A program made the translations under genes and the position numbers. From Gemmatimonadaceae bacterium (GTDB lineage: Bacteria; Gemmatimonadota; Gemmatimonadetes; Gemmatimonadales; Gemmatimonadaceae): 64,000 nt of DNA. This document shows, in pieces, positions 10,748 through 63,764 of the stretch. The stretch is taken from positions 248,001-312,000 of the forward strand of contig JAICWO010000002.1 of assembly GCA_025934775.1 (NCBI GenBank). The letters run 5' to 3'. The notes under the pieces are model-generated. The model ran no database searches, was not told where the DNA came from, and saw nothing but the letters and a program-made list of their open reading frames with translations. Positions within the stretch are counted from its first letter, which is position 1, and each line of letters opens with the position of its first letter.

Positions 10748-10920
10748 GTCATCCCGAGCGACCGAGCGAAGCGGCACCCGCCCATGTCATCCTGAGCGAC
10801 CGAGCGAAGCGGCACCCGCCCGCGTCATCCCGAGCGACCGAGCGACGCGGCACCCGCCCGCGTCATCCCGAGCGACCGAGCGAAGCGAGGGAGTCGAGGG
10901 ATCTGGGCTCGTGGCGCGCG
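10748..10920. repeat. Four tandem copies of a 38-bp GTCATCCCGAGCG repeat
   Basis: GTCATCCCGAGCG or a one-base variant begins at 10748, 10786, 10824 and 10862, an exact 38-bp period. The last copy is longer and runs through GAGTCGAGGGATCTGGGCTC to 10920. These 59 bases (10862-10920) reappear perfectly inverted at 11152-11210. The array lies upstream of the second ADOP gene and has no coding signal. Confidence 0.9.
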
Positions 10921-10988
10921 TGGCCGTCCTGGTGCGATCGCTCCTACAGCCCGCAACCCCTTTCACGTGAATCGGCTTGGACTCCCTA

Positions 10989-11084
10989 GGGAACTACAAT
11001 CGAGCTGAAACTGCATGAAGTGAACGAAGCACCACCTCGGAACCCTCGGTTCGGTTCGTTCGAGTTCGTTGATTTGTAGTTCCC
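10989..11084. repeat. 96-bp inverted-repeat element with GGGAACTACAA ends
   Basis: GGGAACTACAA (10989-10999) is matched by TTGTAGTTCCC (11074-11084). The interior contains GAACGAAGC and a TTCGTTCG stretch that would fold back. A related element with the same end sequence is at 44331-44480. It sits between the two 59-bp arms of the larger inverted repeat, so the structure is nested. Confidence 0.75.
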
Positions 11085-11151
11085 CCTATTCCAAATTGAT
11101 TCGCGAGCATTCAGCAAATTCGCGCGCCAGAGACGAGCACCATGTCGGAAT

Positions 11152-11280
11152 CGCGCGCCACGAGCCCAGATCCCTCGACTCCCTCGCTTCGCTCGGTCGC
11201 TCGGGATGACAGGCGAGGTGTCACTTCGGCTCGCTCGGGGTGACAGGCGCGGCGTCACTTCGGTTCGCTCGGATGACAAC
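11152..11280. repeat. Inverted partner of the 38-bp repeat family plus two partial copies
   Basis: Bases 11152-11210 are the exact reverse complement of 10862-10920. Two degenerate partial units follow (TCACTTCGGCTCGCTCGGG and TCACTTCGGTTCGCTCGG), ending just before the symporter stop codon. With the tandem array at 10748 and the element at 10989 this accounts for most of the 611-bp gap 10672-11282; nothing coding is seen there. Confidence 0.85.
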
Positions 11281-14425: not shown

Positions 14426-15006
14426 CAGTTCCCAGCTCGGCTGTTCGCTATCAGCGACAGCTATCGGAGGAATTTGGATGGCGCTGCGCGCTTTTGGTGA
14501 TGGGCGGGACGGTTCTTTACGCTAGGCTCGAAGTTCTCAATGCGCGGCGAGGCCAGCGTGGGCGACTACAGGAAGCTCTTGGTTTGGCAGCGGGCTACCG
14601 GCCTCGCGCGGCGGGTGCGGGCGCTGGTCGATGCGCTCCCGCCGCGTGAGCGTCGCAATATCGGCGACCAGCTCTTGCGCGCGTCTGGCTCCATTCGCTT
14701 CAACATCGCTGAAGGCGCGGGGCTCAACTCCGACGCGGGCTTTGCGCGGCATCTCCGCATTGCCCCGGGCTCGGCCAACGAGGTCCAAGATCAACTCGCC
14801 GATCTCGAAGCTGTAGGGCTGCTCGCCGAGTCAGACCGCGAGCTTCCGAAGGAAGTTGCCGAAATCCGCGCCATGCTCGCCGTGCTTCATCGCCGCGTCT
14901 CGGCAGACGCCGCGACGTCGAACTCGCCCCGCGCTCACACGGAGCGGCCGCCGTCCAAATTCCTCCGATAGCCGTCGCTGATAGCGAATAGCCGAGCTGG
15001 GAACTG
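14426..15006. mobile_element. 581-bp element: four-helix-bundle gene between 58-bp inverted repeats
   Basis: The left arm 14426-14483 and right arm 14949-15006 are inverted copies with about three mismatches. Both contain CAGTTCCCAGCTCGGCT and GCTATCGGAGGAATTTGGA. Each arm holds a smaller hairpin of REP type, for example around TTCGCTATCAGCGA. The gene's last seven codons and stop lie inside the right arm. The same arms, without a gene, occur at 61021-61269. It is called an element because arms, gene and a gene-less relative recur in one genome; no target-site duplication was confirmed. Confidence 0.7.
14540..14971 (+). CDS. Four-helix-bundle protein (23S rRNA intervening-sequence/S23 family)
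   Basis: This is a 143-residue helical protein of the TIGR02436 type: DYRKLLVWQRATGLAR at about 9-24, NIGDQLLRASGSIRFNIAEG at about 42-61, then two further helices with HLRIAPGSANEVQDQL and AEIRAMLAVL. The family was first seen in intervening sequences inside 23S rRNA genes and is related in fold to Avd of diversity-generating retroelements; its biochemical role is unsettled. Here it is outside any rRNA gene and enclosed by inverted repeats. No ribosome site precedes the ATG. The C-terminal PPSKFLR is encoded by the right arm. Confidence 0.9.
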   Translation: MRGEASVGDYRKLLVWQRATGLARRVRALVDALPPRERRNIGDQLLRASGSIRFNIAEGAGLNSDAGFARHLRIAPGSANEVQDQLADLEAVGLLAESDRELPKEVAEIRAMLAVLHRRVSADAATSNSPRAHTERPPSKFLR

Positions 15007-22001: not shown

Positions 22002-22033
22002 GAAATCTCACTTCTCGTTTCTCGCATCTCGCT

Positions 22034-22099
22034 TCTCGAAACTGGTCTCGGCCCGCCACGTCGCGATCACGACGTCGCCGCCCGAGACCAGTTGCGAGA
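22034..22099. repeat. Long hairpin between convergent genes, TCTCGAAACTGGTCTCGG family
   Basis: ACTGGTCTCGG (22041-22051) pairs with CCGAGACCAGT (22082-22092). Outer TCTCGAA/TGCGAGA and inner GCCACGTCG/CGACGTCGC extend the stem. It lies between two convergent stop codons and could end transcription in both directions. The same core recurs at 63631-63764. Confidence 0.7.
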
Positions 22100-22133
22100 C
22101 GCGAGTGGCCAGAATCGGGACGCGAAACGCGGT

Positions 22134-25400: not shown

Positions 25401-25424
25401 ACGGCGCGGTTAGCCGCGGCGCGG

Positions 25425-25551
25425 CGGTCGCTGTCGTTGTGCGTGGTCCGTCTTCCGTTGTCCGATTTTCCGTCGCGTGGCACGCACGCGCATGATGCGG
25501 TCACGGTCAAACGGAGAACGGACAACGCAGAACGCCTCACGACAGCGACCG
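25425..25551. repeat. 127-bp inverted-repeat element between convergent genes
   Basis: CGGTCGCTGTCGT (25425-25437) is matched by ACGACAGCGACCG (25539-25551). Inside, CGTTGTCCG and CGGACAACG form a second complementary pair. It lies between the stop codons of the flavoprotein and the next cytochrome gene and may act as a two-way terminator. Confidence 0.75.
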
Positions 25552-25579
25552 GCGCGGAATGCCTCCGCGCCGGCCGCCG

Positions 25580-29575: not shown

Positions 29576-30898
29576 ATGCCCGCACGACCGACGACGATGG
29601 GACCGTACGCCTACTATCCCATCGAGTTCACGAAGGACGGCGACGTCTTCCAGCAGCCGCAGCTCGACGCGATCCTGAACGCCGTCGCGCCGCAGGGCGG
29701 GCTCACCGACCTCCTCGTGATCTCGCACGGCTGGAACAACGACATCGCCGACGCCGAGGATCTGTACACGCGGATCTTCGCCCAGGTGAACGCGGTCCTC
29801 GCGCAGCCCGGCGCGGTGACGGACAACGTCCGCGTTCGCCGTGCGGCCGTCGTCGGCATCCTCTGGCCATCAAAGAAGTTTGCTGAGGAATCGCTCATTC
29901 CCGGCGGCGCGGCCGGTCTCGCGGACGGCGGCGTTGCCGACCTCGGCGCGAGCGTCGATCTCCTCTCGCAGTTCCTCGAGTCGCCGGATGCCGCGAAGTC
30001 GCTCGGCCGCGCCAAGGATCTCACCGCCTCGCTCGCCGACGACATGGACGCACGCGACGAGTTCGTGCGCATCGTGCGCGCGTTCATGCCGCACGACGTG
30101 AACGACGAGGAGTCCGTCGTGCCGAACGATCTCTTCGTGCTCGACGGCGACGAGCTCCTGCGGCGATTGAGCCGTCCGGGGCGCGATCAGACGACGAGCG
30201 GCGGCGGCGCCGCGGGGCTCGGCGACTGGATGGGCAAAGCCGTCGACGGCGCGAAGAGCCTCGTCAATCTCGTCACGTACTATCAGATGAAGAACCGCGC
30301 CGGCGTGATCGGAGAGAAGGGCGCGTACGACATGCTGCGGCAGATTCGCGCCGCGCGACCCGCCGACGGCACGAGCGGACTGCGGCTCCATCTCATCGGG
30401 CACAGCTTCGGGTGCAGGCTCGTCACCGCGGCGACCGCCGGGCCCACGGACAGCACGCCGCCGCTGCCGATCGATTCCCTCACGCTGCTGCAGGCCGCGT
30501 TCTCGCACTACGGCTTCGCGCAGGCGTACGACGGCACGCACGACGGATACTTCCGCCGCGTGGTGACCGATCCCACGCGCGTGCGCGGCCCGATGTTGAT
30601 CAGCTTCACGCAGCGCGATCTCGCGGTCGGCCTCGCGTATCCGATCGCGTCGCGCATCGCGCGGCAGATCGCGGCCGCGATCGGTGACGCGAACGATCCC
30701 TACGGCGGCTTGGGACGGAACGGCGCGCAGAAGACGCCAGGCACCACGGTCGTCACGCTCGGCGCACCCGGTACCGCGTACACCTTCGCGCTGCGCGGCG
30801 TCTACAACATGGACGCGAACGCGGTGATCGGCGGCCACTCGGATCTCGCGCATCCGGAGGTGGCGTATGCGCTGCTGGCGGGAGTGGCGGTGACTTAG
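29576..30898 (+). CDS. Alpha/beta-hydrolase-fold protein partnered with the subtilase
   Basis: This is a 440-residue protein. An early LLVISHGWNND (about 46-56) resembles the oxyanion strand-loop of alpha/beta hydrolases, and the nucleophile elbow GHSFG is near 280. A plausible Asp (TQRDLAVG) and a late His (GGHSDLAHPE, near 423) complete a triad. The middle (about 90-240) is a long insertion with Gly-rich stretches. There is no signal peptide. It starts ten bases after the subtilase stop. Lipase, esterase or peptidase activity are all possible; I do not recognise a named family. Confidence 0.7.
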   Translation: MPARPTTMGPYAYYPIEFTKDGDVFQQPQLDAILNAVAPQGGLTDLLVISHGWNNDIADAEDLYTRIFAQVNAVLAQPGAVTDNVRVRRAAVVGILWPSKKFAEESLIPGGAAGLADGGVADLGASVDLLSQFLESPDAAKSLGRAKDLTASLADDMDARDEFVRIVRAFMPHDVNDEESVVPNDLFVLDGDELLRRLSRPGRDQTTSGGGAAGLGDWMGKAVDGAKSLVNLVTYYQMKNRAGVIGEKGAYDMLRQIRAARPADGTSGLRLHLIGHSFGCRLVTAATAGPTDSTPPLPIDSLTLLQAAFSHYGFAQAYDGTHDGYFRRVVTDPTRVRGPMLISFTQRDLAVGLAYPIASRIARQIAAAIGDANDPYGGLGRNGAQKTPGTTVVTLGAPGTAYTFALRGVYNMDANAVIGGHSDLAHPEVAYALLAGVAVT

Positions 30899-31000
<102 letters not shown>

Positions 31001-31084
31001 TCTACCACCCTATACCCTCCACCGGCAAACGGCCATATTTCCCCCACGCCGCCGTCGCGGCGCCCCTCACCTCACGAGGCTTCA

Positions 31085-53591: not shown

Positions 53592-53706
53592 CGGTTGCGC
53601 GGGCGAGGGGAGAAACGGCGGTGCGGGGACTGATATTCTACGCCGCGGGACGGGCGTTCGCTGGACTCGCGACGGGGCGCCGTGGCGCCGTGGTGCGCCG
53701 AATATC

Positions 53707-53976
53707 GTTGGATTGATTTTGGGGACGCGGACTAGACGGGCCTGTGGCGGGCGAACGAGGGGCTGACTCGCTCCGCTACTCAGAAGGCTCCGCTCGCAAC
53801 GAGCCCGGGCGAATGTGTTAGGAACGGCCTCAGGACGCGTCTCGTGACGTCCCGGGCGGCAGTGCCCAAAGAAGATCCCGGCTCGTGGCGCCTGGAGATC
53901 GCACTGCAAAGCAGTTCTCCGTCCCTCGTTCGCGCGCCGCAGGCCCGCCAGGTCCGCGTCCCCATTTCAATCCAAC
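53707..53976. repeat. 270-bp element with about 54-bp imperfect inverted-repeat ends
   Basis: Left end 53707-53761 (GTTGGATTG, GGGGACGCGGAC, GGCGAACGAGG) and right end 53923-53976 are inverted copies with roughly ten differences. The interior carries no gene-like frame. It fills the 406-bp gap between the BNR gene start and the GH18 gene end; the remaining flanks show nothing recognisable. Confidence 0.75.
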
Positions 53977-53997
53977 CCAATTCGGCGCGACGATGCG

Positions 53998-55038
53998 CTA
54001 CGGGACGATCCCCCACACCTTGGGATCTTCCGTCCCGAGCACCCACACCGAATACCCGCGCAGCTTGTACTTGCGCACGAGCTCCAGCTTCGCCGCGAAT
54101 GCGCGCGCGTCCTCCAGCCAGAGGAACTCGTTGATGCCGTCGTTGCTCCAGAATGCGTACGACGCCTTGTCGCGATCGTCCCAGACCGGCTTCGCGTCGT
54201 AGCGCGCGAGCAGCCCCTGCGCGGTCTCGTAGGCGATGTCGCTGCCGCGCATCTGCGAGCCGTTCTTCACGTCGAACGTCGGGTACCACCAATCCGAATA
54301 CGACGGAATGCCGAGCGAGATCTTGTTCGGCGGCACGCCAAGGGAGAGGACGTACTGGAGCGCGCTCTCCATCCAGGGATAGCCGGCGACCGGTCCCGGC
54401 GGCGTGCCTCCGGTGTGCTGCGCGTACGTCATGAACGAGATGAAATCGAGCGCGTCGGCGAGCGCCTTGTAGTCGTACGCGCCGCGCCAGTTCTCGAAGA
54501 TCCAGCGGTGATAGGACGTCGGTCCGGGAAAGTCGCTCGCGCGCGGCACCACGGCGGCGGACAGCGTGCACTGCACGCCGTGGAGCGCGTCGGCGGACTG
54601 GCGCATGAAGCTCGTGAGCGAGTCGCGATCGGCGACATTCACGTTCTCGATGTCGAACTGAATGCCGTCGAAGTGATGATCGCGGCAGAGCGTGACGAGA
54701 TTCGCGATCGCCCGCCGGCGGACGTCGGCCGTGTTGAGGATATGGTGAATCGTCGGCTGATCGAAGCCGGGGTTCATCACCAGCGGCACGACTTTCGTCT
54801 GCGATGCGTGCGCCCGCGCGACGACGCGCGCGTCGACATCGCCCCAGATCACGCCGAGCGAGTCGATCGAGAACACTTGCGGCGAGACGATCGAGATCTT
54901 GCCGGCGTGCGCGAGGAAGCTCTGCGTGCTCGTCTCGTTGTCGACCGAGTACCAGAGCGACTCGAGCTGCTGGGCCCGCGCCAGGCGGCTCGTGGCGGCG
55001 AGGGCGATGATTGCTACGATCAGTCGCGCGAGTCGCAT
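53998..55038 (-). CDS. Exported glycoside hydrolase family 18-like protein (YaaH/chitinase type)
   Basis: This is a 346-residue secreted TIM-barrel protein with a signal peptide ending near RAQQ (about 23). The GH18 catalytic motif is DGIQFDIEN with Asp124, Asp129 and Glu131. FDFISFMTYAQHTG-type (LDFISFMTYAQHTGG) and late SYAFWSNDGINEFLWLED segments resemble spore-coat YaaH-type enzymes that act on N-acetylglucosamine polymers. Peptidoglycan or chitin hydrolysis is plausible. Confidence 0.85.
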   Translation of the reverse strand: MRLARLIVAIIALAATSRLARAQQLESLWYSVDNETSTQSFLAHAGKISIVSPQVFSIDSLGVIWGDVDARVVARAHASQTKVVPLVMNPGFDQPTIHHILNTADVRRRAIANLVTLCRDHHFDGIQFDIENVNVADRDSLTSFMRQSADALHGVQCTLSAAVVPRASDFPGPTSYHRWIFENWRGAYDYKALADALDFISFMTYAQHTGGTPPGPVAGYPWMESALQYVLSLGVPPNKISLGIPSYSDWWYPTFDVKNGSQMRGSDIAYETAQGLLARYDAKPVWDDRDKASYAFWSNDGINEFLWLEDARAFAAKLELVRKYKLRGYSVWVLGTEDPKVWGIVP

Positions 55039-55071
55039 GCGGTGGGGCGGGTGTGGTTGGAATTGAATGAT

Positions 55072-55549
55072 GCTACGGACCTGACGGACGGCGACGAACT
55101 TGACTGAATGACGCTACGGAATGGCGATGAGCTTCTGGAAGAACACCTCTCGCGGTCGGCAATTGGAGCCTTCTACGCCACATATCGCAAGCTTGGATTC
55201 GGCTTCCTCGAGAGCATCTATGTTCTGGGGCTCGAGCGTGAGCTGACGAGCCGGGGTCACCGCGTGGGCCGGGAAGTCGCGGTCCCGGTGTACTATGACG
55301 GCGATATTCTCGCCTATCAGCGCATGGACCTAGTCGTCGACGATCGATTGGTGCTCGAAGTGAAAGCGACCGAGATCCTGCACAAGGATGCTCCCCGTCA
55401 ATTCCTGAACTACCTCCGTTCAACGAATCTGGAAGTTGGTCTCGTGCTTCACTTCGGGCGAGAGCCAAAGTTTCATCGCGTCATCTACGACAAGGACTTC
55501 AAGCAACGCCGAGTCCGTCAAGTTCGTCCAGATTCGTCAGGTTCGTAGC
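55072..55549. mobile_element. 478-bp element: GxxExxY gene between 36-bp inverted repeats
   Basis: Left arm 55072-55107 and right arm 55514-55549 are inverted copies matching at about 29 of 36 positions (shared GCTACG, ACCTGACG, GACGAACTTGAC). The gene starts at the base after the left arm, and its last codons plus stop lie inside the right arm. This is the same architecture as the four-helix-bundle element at 14426-15006, with unrelated arm sequence and gene. Confidence 0.62.
55108..55548 (+). CDS. GxxExxY family protein, PD-(D/E)xK nuclease-like
   Basis: This is a 146-residue protein with the family motif GFLESIY (about 32-38) and YVLGLERELTSRGH behind it. YQRMDLVVDDRLVLEVKA (about 70-87) has the D-x(n)-ExK spacing of PD-(D/E)xK nucleases. 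FLNYLRSTNLEVGLVLHFG completes the fold. The family is patchily distributed and its function is unproven. Enclosure by inverted repeats suggests it moves as a cassette. No ribosome site is obvious. Confidence 0.88.
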   Translation: MTLRNGDELLEEHLSRSAIGAFYATYRKLGFGFLESIYVLGLERELTSRGHRVGREVAVPVYYDGDILAYQRMDLVVDDRLVLEVKATEILHKDAPRQFLNYLRSTNLEVGLVLHFGREPKFHRVIYDKDFKQRRVRQVRPDSSGS

Positions 55550-55563
55550 TCACCTCTTCGACG

Positions 55564-57225
55564 CTACCTCGCGCCCTCCGCCCCCTCGCGCCGCACCAGG
55601 ACATAGAAGTTCGGATCCACCTTCACCGCCGCATCCGCCGCGACCGTGCCGGGAAGCGTCTTCCACGCCTCGGTCGCCGTGATCCACTGATACCGCGTGG
55701 TGTCCCCGATGCCGACGCGGACGCGCATCGCGAAGCCGGGAACGACGTCCGTCCAGTGATACGCGAGCCGGCTATTCGTGATTTTGTATTCCAGAACTGG
55801 TATCTTGGTCGTCGTCAGATACTGCTGAAAGATCTTCGAGAAGTCCTGGCCGGCGAGCGCGCTGAGCTCGTGCTCGAATTCCGGGCTCGAGACGGTCTGA
55901 TGCCAGAAATGCGATTGCAGCCCGCGCAGCACGCCGCGCCACTTCGCATCATTGTCGACGAGCTGGCGGAGCATGTTGATCATGCTGCCGCCCTTGTAGT
56001 ACATGTCGCCCGAGCCCTCGGCGTTCACGCCGTAGGCCGGGATGATCGGCTCATCGTTCCGAACGAGACGACGGCTGCCGATGATGTACCGCTCGCCCGC
56101 GTCCTTCCCCTGCTGGCATTCGGTGTAAATCCCCTCCGCGTAGTTCGCGAAGCTCTCGTGGATCCACATGTCCGCCTGGTCCTTGCCGGTGATGTTGTTC
56201 CCCCACCACTCGTGCGCGCTCTCGTGCACGATGATGAAATCCCACTCGAGTCCGAGACCGGTCGCCGAGAGATCGCGGCCGAGGTAGCCGTTCTTGAAGT
56301 GATTGCCGTACGCGACGCCGCTCTGATGCTCCATGCCGAGGTGCGGCGCCTCGATGAGCTTGTAGCCGTCCGGATACCACGGGTATGGCCCGAACCAGTG
56401 CTCGAAGCACTTCATCATCGACTTGGCCTGCTGGAACTGCACGCGCGCCGTGTCGAGGTGGTACGCGAGCGGCCAGAAGTCCATCGTCAACTTGCCTTTC
56501 TCACCCTCGTACGAGTCGGCGATATGTGCGTACTGGCCCGCGTTCACCTCGACGTCGTACGTGTTGATCGGTTCCGTGACGAACCACTCGTACGTGGTCG
56601 TCCCGTCGGAGTTGTGCGTCGTCGAGCGCAGCCGGCCGTTGGAGACGTCCATCATCGGGTCCGGCACCGTGATCGCGATGCGCTGGCTGTCCGGCTCGTC
56701 GGCGAGGAGGTCTTTCACCGGCCACCACACGCTCGCGCCGAGTCCTTCGTTCGCCGTCGCGATCCAGCGGTTGCCGAGCGAATCGTGCTGCCAGATGAAA
56801 CCACCGTCCCACGGCGGCCGCATCGCCGCGCGCGGTTTGCCGTGATAATAGACGGTCACGGTGTTCTTGGTGCCCGCGCGCTGCGGAGCGGTGAGCGCGA
56901 CGAAGAACGCATTGCTGTCGCGGCGGAACGTGAGCGTGTGTCCGTCCTGGACCATGCTGTCCGCTTCGAGCGGTACCTGGAGATCGATCTGCATCTCCTT
57001 CGCCGGTTTGAGCACGCGATACGTGATCGCGTTCCATCCCGAGATGCTGCTGTCGACCGGGTTTACACGCACGTGCAAGTCATAGAACGACGCGTCCCAC
57101 CACGCGCGCGCGGGCCCGTTCGTCCCGCGAACGGTGTCAGCGTGGGTGTAGACGCGAGGCCTGCGCTGCGCATTCGCGGCGGCGGCGCAGAAGAAGAGCG
57201 AGAGCAAGGCAACGATTCGACGCAT
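55564..57225 (-). CDS. Exported M1 family zinc metallopeptidase
   Basis: This is a 553-residue secreted aminopeptidase-like enzyme with a signal peptide ending NAQ (about 20). The zinc site is His334-Glu-x2-His338 (HESAHEWW) with Glu357 (WIHESFANYAE). The exopeptidase motif reads GMEHQ at 297-301 rather than GAMEN, as in many bacterial periplasmic M1 relatives. It probably trims peptides at the cell surface. Confidence 0.92.
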   Translation of the reverse strand: MRRIVALLSLFFCAAAANAQRRPRVYTHADTVRGTNGPARAWWDASFYDLHVRVNPVDSSISGWNAITYRVLKPAKEMQIDLQVPLEADSMVQDGHTLTFRRDSNAFFVALTAPQRAGTKNTVTVYYHGKPRAAMRPPWDGGFIWQHDSLGNRWIATANEGLGASVWWPVKDLLADEPDSQRIAITVPDPMMDVSNGRLRSTTHNSDGTTTYEWFVTEPINTYDVEVNAGQYAHIADSYEGEKGKLTMDFWPLAYHLDTARVQFQQAKSMMKCFEHWFGPYPWYPDGYKLIEAPHLGMEHQSGVAYGNHFKNGYLGRDLSATGLGLEWDFIIVHESAHEWWGNNITGKDQADMWIHESFANYAEGIYTECQQGKDAGERYIIGSRRLVRNDEPIIPAYGVNAEGSGDMYYKGGSMINMLRQLVDNDAKWRGVLRGLQSHFWHQTVSSPEFEHELSALAGQDFSKIFQQYLTTTKIPVLEYKITNSRLAYHWTDVVPGFAMRVRVGIGDTTRYQWITATEAWKTLPGTVAADAAVKVDPNFYVLVRREGAEGAR

Positions 57226-61020: not shown

Positions 61021-61269
61021 CAGTTCCCAGCTCGGCTGTTCGCTATCAGCGACAGCGATCTGAGGAGCTCGGAACGAAGCGTTGAATGGGAGCGCGTGCC
61101 GTGCCCCGCGCGGCCCTCCGAGGATCACTGCCGAACCGGGTGCCCGGACAACTTCCCGCCGTGCCACGCGTGGCGTCCACGCCACCCGAAGCTGACCCCC
61201 GCTCCCATCACACACTTCCAAATTCCTCGGATAGCTGTCGCCGATAGCGAACAGCCGAGCCGGGAACTG
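61021..61269. repeat. 249-bp gene-less relative of the four-helix-bundle element
   Basis: Left arm (from CAGTTCCCAGCTCGGCTG at 61021, to about 61073) and right arm 61218-61269 are inverted and closely match the arms at 14426 and 14949. The 144-bp interior has no coding frame. It resembles a non-autonomous deletion form (MITE or REPIN-like) and fills most of the gap 60968-61292. Confidence 0.8.
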
Positions 61270-63630: not shown

Positions 63631-63764
63631 ATCGCGACGTCGAACCTGAGACCAGTCGCGAGAGCCGAGACTCGAGAGCCGAGATGCGAGACCCGATCGT
63701 GGTCTCGCGGCTCTCAGCTCGGCTCTCGCGTCTCGAAACTGGTCTCGGGCAGCGACGTCGCGAT
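63631..63764. repeat. 134-bp long hairpin, TCTCGAAACTGGTCTCGG family
   Basis: Outer arms ATCGCGACGTCG (63631-63642) and CGACGTCGCGAT (63753-63764) are perfect. Inner arms 63648-63693 and 63701-63746 pair imperfectly over 46 bases. The core matches the hairpin at 22034-22099. It lies upstream of the DUF5916 gene and of the partial gene at the window end. Confidence 0.8.

Follow-up and report, generated by a model that had tools for sequence, protein, structure and literature searches.

The window, that is the whole stretch of 64,000 nucleotides analysed here (G000:C20:248001-312000, from a 4.88-Mb genome), contains a small gene of the GxxExxY family lying between two inverted arms. The inverted-repeat search placed the arms at 55072-55107 and 55514-55549, 36 nt each with 29 of 36 positions complementary (81%) and 406 nt between them, which agrees with the arm length and the 29 matches given by an earlier, sequence-only reading. 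The gene, 55108-55548 on the plus strand, codes for 146 amino acids; its ATG follows immediately 3' of the left arm and its stop codon TAG (55546-55548) falls within the right arm. The earlier reading had taken this tight fit as part of the design, and it is correct for the window element but fails as a general rule. Among the arm-bearing elements of the cross-phylum set described below, the homology core is separated from the arm by a median of 35 bp on the left side and 22 bp on the right, and only 4 of 61 have the stop codon within the right arm.

The left arm, on the plus strand, is made up of iterons of about 9 nt, ACGGACCTG ACGGACGGCG ACGAACTTG, followed by ACTGA. The right arm, on the minus strand and including the stop codon, reads as reverse complement ACGAACCTG ACGAATCTGG ACGAACTTG and ACGGA; this division into units is our own, made by comparison with other elements. 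Outside the left arm there is a stretch, GTGGTTGGAATTGAATGAT (55050-55071, plus strand), which in sequence comparison resembles TGGGTTGGATTGAATTGG, found at the outer end of the elements L002 and L060, and has no matching partner on the right side.

The gene is antisense to a host operon. According to the ORF list and the orthologues, its neighbours are an operon-downstream gene that is glycosyl-hydrolase-18-like by motif (53998-55038, minus strand) and an operon-upstream gene that is M1-peptidase-like by its HExxH motif (55564-57225, minus strand). In two genomes of the same genus, G002 and G004, the orthologues of these genes are directly adjacent, the stop codon of one overlapping the start codon of the other, whereas in the window genome they are separated by the 525 bp of 55039-55563, within which the element lies. 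The segment is thus inserted relative to both relatives. Since the overlap is intact in them, we infer from the orthologue comparison that the window site has seen a gain and not a loss.

The protein matches TIGR04256 (95.9 bits, E 2e-27, cut-off 35) and PF13366, PDDEXK_3 (100.4 bits, cut-off 22). The residues G32, E35 and Y38 of the GxxExxY motif are invariant, and the conserved residues are E35, D74, E84, K86, Q98 and Y102. The RecB/Cas4 group is characterised by the combination of D..ExK and QxxxY. The AlphaFold model is a single domain of high confidence (mean pLDDT 88.5), and its best Foldseek match is SSO0001 (probability 1.0, E 1.4e-4), which we take to be a Cas4 protein, with alkaline and lambda-type exonucleases, MGME1 and Hjc as the next matches. 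In VIA-align, SSO0001 reached Z 9.2 at an rmsd of 7.7 and AF1548 reached Z 8.3 at an rmsd of 2.2; a search for solved structures by sequence found nothing. Judged by its sequence and predicted fold, the window protein is an intact PD-(D/E)XK nuclease. On this evidence its membership of the superfamily is secure, its exact nearest relative is not, and the nuclease activity is inferred.

Arms around two gene families

To score a palindrome, the left flank was aligned locally with the reverse complement of the right flank. The window gene scores 23, a value reached by 0.6% of 3070 random 330-bp cores taken from 464 kb of the same genome, and against first-order Markov flanks the arms have P = 0.0003. 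Considered alone, the window arms are significant but only modestly so, and the weight of the argument rests on the families. The six GxxExxY genes of the genome score 39, 23, 21, 18, 15 and 14; three of these values lie at roughly the 1% level or beyond, one lies at 4% and two cannot be distinguished from background. Strong repeats surround 6 of its 7 four-helix-bundle genes.

Two other loci of this genome deserve mention. The GxxExxY copy at C39:25334-25645 (L004) is interrupted by two TAG codons, and its arms can still be made out. The strongest inverted repeat in the 464 kb, at C20:65376-65978 (L017), has 139-nt arms and a score of 79; the arms repeat a CTTCCGAACGGCGCTGA-like unit of about 15 nt, and the core has no GxxExxY or four-helix-bundle match.

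A Gemmatimonadota set was made up of 49 of 50 GxxExxY matches from the window genome and 29 relatives, and the same 30 genomes supplied 36 TIGR02436 genes, which encode the four-helix-bundle protein, and 30 PIN-domain genes (PF01850) as controls. With a strong inverted repeat defined as a palindrome score of at least 20, repeats were found around 23 of the 49 GxxExxY genes and 27 of the 36 TIGR02436 genes. No PIN gene out of 30 reached this score (maximum 15), and random cores from the same loci did so in 8 of 638 cases (1.3%). About half of the GxxExxY copies in the relatives score below 20.

For a wider view, a GxxExxY subfamily alignment was run against 84,980 species genomes, which gave 80 loci, 76 of them usable and spread over 16 named phyla, Methanobacteriota included. 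The query was the GPGLLES-type subfamily, as a family-wide alignment was too diverse, and the set is biased accordingly. A score of at least 20 was reached by 61 of these 76 loci and by none of 664 random cores from the same loci. The elements have a median length of 521 bp and a median arm length of 40 nt. One of the numbered loci, L172, is the same place as L046 of genome G010.

Chance as the origin of the palindrome is ruled out by the random cores, the Markov flanks and the family enrichment, and a generic enclosure of patchy genes by the PIN control. The sequence-only reading had suggested that one-gene cassettes bounded by palindromes form a general class, and it proposed looking for flanking repeats around GxxExxY and TIGR02436 genes elsewhere, with a lack of enrichment as the refuting outcome. 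That outcome did not occur. Both families are enriched, and neither the size-matched, patchy PIN genes nor random intervals are, which supports the class. It had also called the arms of the two families unrelated. This holds between the families, which differ in iteron pitch; among themselves, the GxxExxY arms of different phyla have a degenerate consensus in common.

Some elements have arms of a special form. The GxxExxY element L255 of Hymenobacter (G035) has perfectly identical 52-nt arms, which suggests a very recent event or a strong arm-to-arm correction. In L189, L195, L196, L202, L223, L238 and L251 the inverted iterons of each single arm make a hairpin, which gives the gene a REPIN-like flank on both sides.

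Iteron syntax and the encoded protein

The arms are arrays of short tandem iterons. Across phyla, those of GxxExxY elements share the degenerate core C-R-C-N-R-A-G, whose units are 1-3 nt apart and often have T-T-N-A-(C/A) in front; we read the window units GACGGAC, GACGAAC and GACGAAT as a variant of this core. At 55 of the 76 loci, each side carries two or more core units that read towards the gene. Relative to the gene, 465 cores point inward and 160 outward; 84 of the spacings are of 8 nt, 110 of 9 nt and 40 of 10 nt. The core was picked after inspection of the arms, so these counts are descriptive and do not amount to a test. The inward bias and the spacing were not built into the pattern, and a 7-nt pattern disfavours shorter spacing. 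The four-helix-bundle arms in the same Gemmatimonadota genomes are mostly built from 7-mers: the ratio of 7-nt to 8-10-nt pitch is 21:5 for four-helix-bundle arms and 1:17 for GxxExxY arms (Fisher P = 1e-6).

The iteron word varies together with the protein. At a Sphingomonas locus the two arms of most elements are built from repeats of a single word, either CGCGGAG or CGCGAAG; in a few, CGCAGAG occurs beside CGCGGAG, or CGCAAAG beside CGCGAAG. Between species the words change jointly on both arms and follow the protein clade. Across phyla, the nearest protein from another phylum shares the iteron word in 28 of 53 cases, as compared to 12.0 ± 3.4 for shuffled words (0 of 2000 shuffles as high), and the protein tree requires 25 word changes against 29.2 ± 1.5 for shuffled labels. 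The nearest-neighbour pairs are not fully independent, and the P value is therefore approximate. The tie between protein and arms is a statistical one, and with no binding or cutting data a contact between nuclease and arms is inferred. The concerted change of the arms may stem from, or be helped by, conversion of one arm by the other.

The arms could also be thought to work as RNA, in the manner of the ORF-bearing intervening sequences of 23S rRNA, with the arm stem being excised or processed and the protein acting on RNA. The two arms pair together in the predicted 492-nt transcript of the window element, whose fold is 4 standard deviations more stable than shuffled sequences (z -4), and the four-helix-bundle sister family is the protein family of those intervening sequences, which also have terminal inverted repeats (PMC4990558). 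Selection for a stem in the gene-strand RNA would be expected to tilt the arm mismatches towards G.U. Pooled over three sets, the counts for and against G.U are 215 and 216, and the Gemmatimonadota set alone leans the opposite way, 49 against 76 (P = 0.02). This lack of a G.U bias mildly favours a role at the DNA level. An Rfam search of 53600-55700 gave no match; these two results speak against an RNA stem under selection. Furthermore, the window element sits between two protein genes, antisense to their operon, and not in a 23S rRNA helix, and gene-less copies are also found between genes. We regard an RNA-level element as improbable.

Gene-less copies and turnover at sites

Copies without a gene were sought on 2.03 of the 4.88 Mb, together with a genome-wide search using the window left arm. 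In the 2.03 Mb, inverted pairs of the arms of two GxxExxY elements, L001 and L002, occur again at places where no gene of this family was detected. One such palindrome, of the L002 dialect, occupies 53680-54003 in the intergenic space neighbouring the window element, and further L002-type pairs are found at C35:162816-163116, C7:23959-24138 and C47:227260-227420. Several four-helix-bundle arm types also recur in the 2.03 Mb, at as many as six or so places, which is far more than shuffled arms give. The four-helix-bundle (TIGR02436) element to which the earlier reading had compared the window element, 14426-15006 with 58-nt arms, has a gene-less palindrome with its arms at 61021-61269.

For the arms of the window element itself no convincing second copy was found, either in the 2.03 Mb or, for the left arm, genome-wide. 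As its own arms are without a second copy, this member may be old or immobile. Copies mobilised in trans are plausible for the class and have not been demonstrated for the window member.

Each of the four-helix-bundle arm dialects L008-L011 of the genome is accompanied by its own set of inverted pairs without a gene, about 100-280 bp in length; the heptamer dialect of L008 (GTGGACC) has 110 matches in the 2.03 Mb, as compared to 0.2 with shuffled arms. The window holds other intergenic-looking inverted repeats, at 10748-11237, 22008-22125, 25420-25556, 30893-31004 and 63645-63749, and several of these five consist of short iterated units, namely GTCATCCCGAGCGACCGAGCGAAGCG, CCGTGGAC heptamers and GAGACGCGAGA-like units.

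Gene-less palindromes are numerous, which is what would be expected if some other cellular enzyme, such as a Y1 transposase, spread the arms as REP- or MITE-like palindromes and the GxxExxY gene were only a passenger between two of them. That the element has no transposase, and that some GxxExxY genes have no arms, would fit this explanation too. It does not account for the iteron word following the protein sequence across phyla, for a pitch that is specific to the protein family, or for iterons oriented relative to the gene, and the patchy PIN family is never enclosed in this way. We consider a passenger gene unlikely, without dismissing it.

The sites themselves change between related genomes. 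At the Sphingomonas locus, which is independent of the window locus, the element lies directly after the upstream stop codon in 17 of the examined species, and species without it have only 29-44 bp at this place (L295, L297, L304). Neither the exact bases at the borders nor a target-site duplication could be read, since the empty sites at the window locus, in Sphingomonas and in Dolichospermum L261 are too diverged or rearranged; L261 is a rearranged site and offers no clean empty one. One intergenic site in Dolichospermum, with flanks 86-97% identical, carries three different GxxExxY elements across genomes, each with its own arms and one in reversed orientation, and in L276 the same site has a bare palindrome only. 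Repeated insertion into palindromes, homing and recombination are all possible explanations of this turnover. At one Dolichospermum site, in L266, L267 and L270 as compared to L249, the enclosed GxxExxY gene (about 70% identical DNA) is flipped between the same flanks.

It could be argued that the gene serves its host in defence or regulation. The nuclease would then be a repair or defence enzyme like Cas4, and the arms would act as operators or terminators. In favour of this, purifying selection acts on the gene, with a median dN/dS of 0.17 over 20 pairs of the Sphingomonas gene set, one family member has weak PADLOC matches to Cas4 and to reverse-transcriptase-associated PDDEXK proteins, and the linkage between protein and arms would fit an operator as well. 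The window protein, on the other hand, matched no PADLOC family at E <= 0.1. An operator does not predict arms on both sides, gene-less palindromes elsewhere, or different element types at one site and in both orientations, and we doubt strongly that a host function explains the arrangement. Carriage by plasmids and phages gives no conclusion here: the family query matched 7 of 72,556 plasmids and 0 of 50,697 phages, and a single PIN query gave a similar count on plasmids (8).

Proposed element and its relation to known systems

The explanation we prefer, with a probability of roughly 0.6, is a miniature element of about 0.5 kb, whose GxxExxY nuclease acts on its own iteron arms and which spreads in a RAYT/REPIN-like or homing-like manner. 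The two inward-reading iteron arrays around the gene form a long imperfect palindrome, and this unit would insert into tight intergenic spaces, at the window site between two overlapping operon genes. Most probably the DNA of its own iteron dialect, in the form of a hairpin, a cruciform or a duplex, is what the nuclease recognises and then cuts or trims. Host repair or replication would then copy arms and gene as one, or in trans only the arms, and the copies would go to new places or into existing palindromes. The economy as a whole would be like that of RAYT/REPIN or of homing, driven by a different enzyme.

The enrichment over PIN and random controls, the inward iterons, the family-specific pitch, the agreement between word and protein, the joint change of both arms, the purifying selection, the conserved catalytic residues with a Cas4/RecB-like fold, the empty sites, the gene-less pairs, the Dolichospermum turnover and the even G.U counts favour this model. 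The absence of a readable target-site duplication, the single-copy arms in the window, the GxxExxY genes without arms, the possible conversion between arms and the stable RNA fold count against it. The arms, the insertion relative to relatives, the enrichment, the iteron syntax, the arm change that follows the protein, the selection on the gene family and the gene-less copies of some dialects are observations. Binding and cutting of the arms by the nuclease, the resulting spread, its intermediate and transposition are all inferred, since an analysis of sequences could not observe movement, cutting or binding.

Taken further, the GxxExxY genes, found in many bacterial phyla and in archaea, and the four-helix-bundle genes may represent two parallel, ancient classes of autonomous miniature elements. 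In each, a small protein that is not a transposase would read iterons of a family-specific pitch (8-10 and 7 nt, respectively), spread its own palindrome and mobilise gene-less copies in trans, and much of the unexplained intergenic repetition of ACCACAGAGGCACAGAG type and of heptamers would be their arms. We put this forward tentatively, at somewhat below even odds. GxxExxY and TIGR02436 are widespread annotated families without an established function, and they now have a concrete, testable candidate role as proteins of palindromic elements. The data suggest an origin for common short-iteron intergenic repeats, and if the nuclease does act on the arms, a RAYT/REPIN-like system exists under a different enzyme superfamily. 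As the co-variation of enzyme and DNA word is visible, the specificity can be tested directly.

No description of such elements, or of the four iteron strings looked for, was found in the open-licence literature (no preprints and few subscription papers), where one paper mentions GxxExxY in passing, and an earlier description is possible. The class of palindromic, probably mobile elements is apparently undescribed, and the chance that it stands apart as a separate class is substantial. With the ORF-bearing 23S rRNA intervening sequences (S23p), which have terminal inverted repeats and a four-helix-bundle protein (PMC4990558), it shares a short single-gene unit between terminal inverted repeats, and the four-helix-bundle sister element shares the protein family. 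Unlike them, it is not in rRNA, has no sign of selection for RNA pairing, and GxxExxY is an unrelated nuclease fold. Like MITEs and insertion sequences, the elements have terminal inverted repeats, a size of about 0.1-0.6 kb, intergenic insertion and gene-less derivatives, but they have no transposase of a known superfamily, their arms are iteron arrays with a variable word, and no target duplication has been established. The protein has the fold and the D..ExK and QxxxY residues of the Cas4/RecB/lambda-exonuclease group of PD-(D/E)XK nucleases; it differs in being a short stand-alone protein encoded inside a palindrome, with no CRISPR, helicase or phage partner seen. As for homing endonuclease elements, no intron or intein is apparent at the window site, and the exchange at the Dolichospermum site is compatible with homing without proving it.

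Together with the intervening sequences, the nearest known organisation is that of the RAYT (TnpA-REP) genes with their REP/REPIN palindromes (PMC3116915). In both cases palindromic repeats enclose the gene, a genome has several gene copies, each with its own repeat dialect, and paired copies without a gene are dispersed over extragenic sites, here for the L001 and L002 dialects and not for the window's own. The differences lie in the enzyme, as the only gene is a PDDEXK nuclease by profile and predicted fold in place of a Y1/HUH transposase, and in the arms, which are tandem arrays of 8-10-nt iterons as compared to single REP hairpins of 20-40 nt, and which are found in archaea too.
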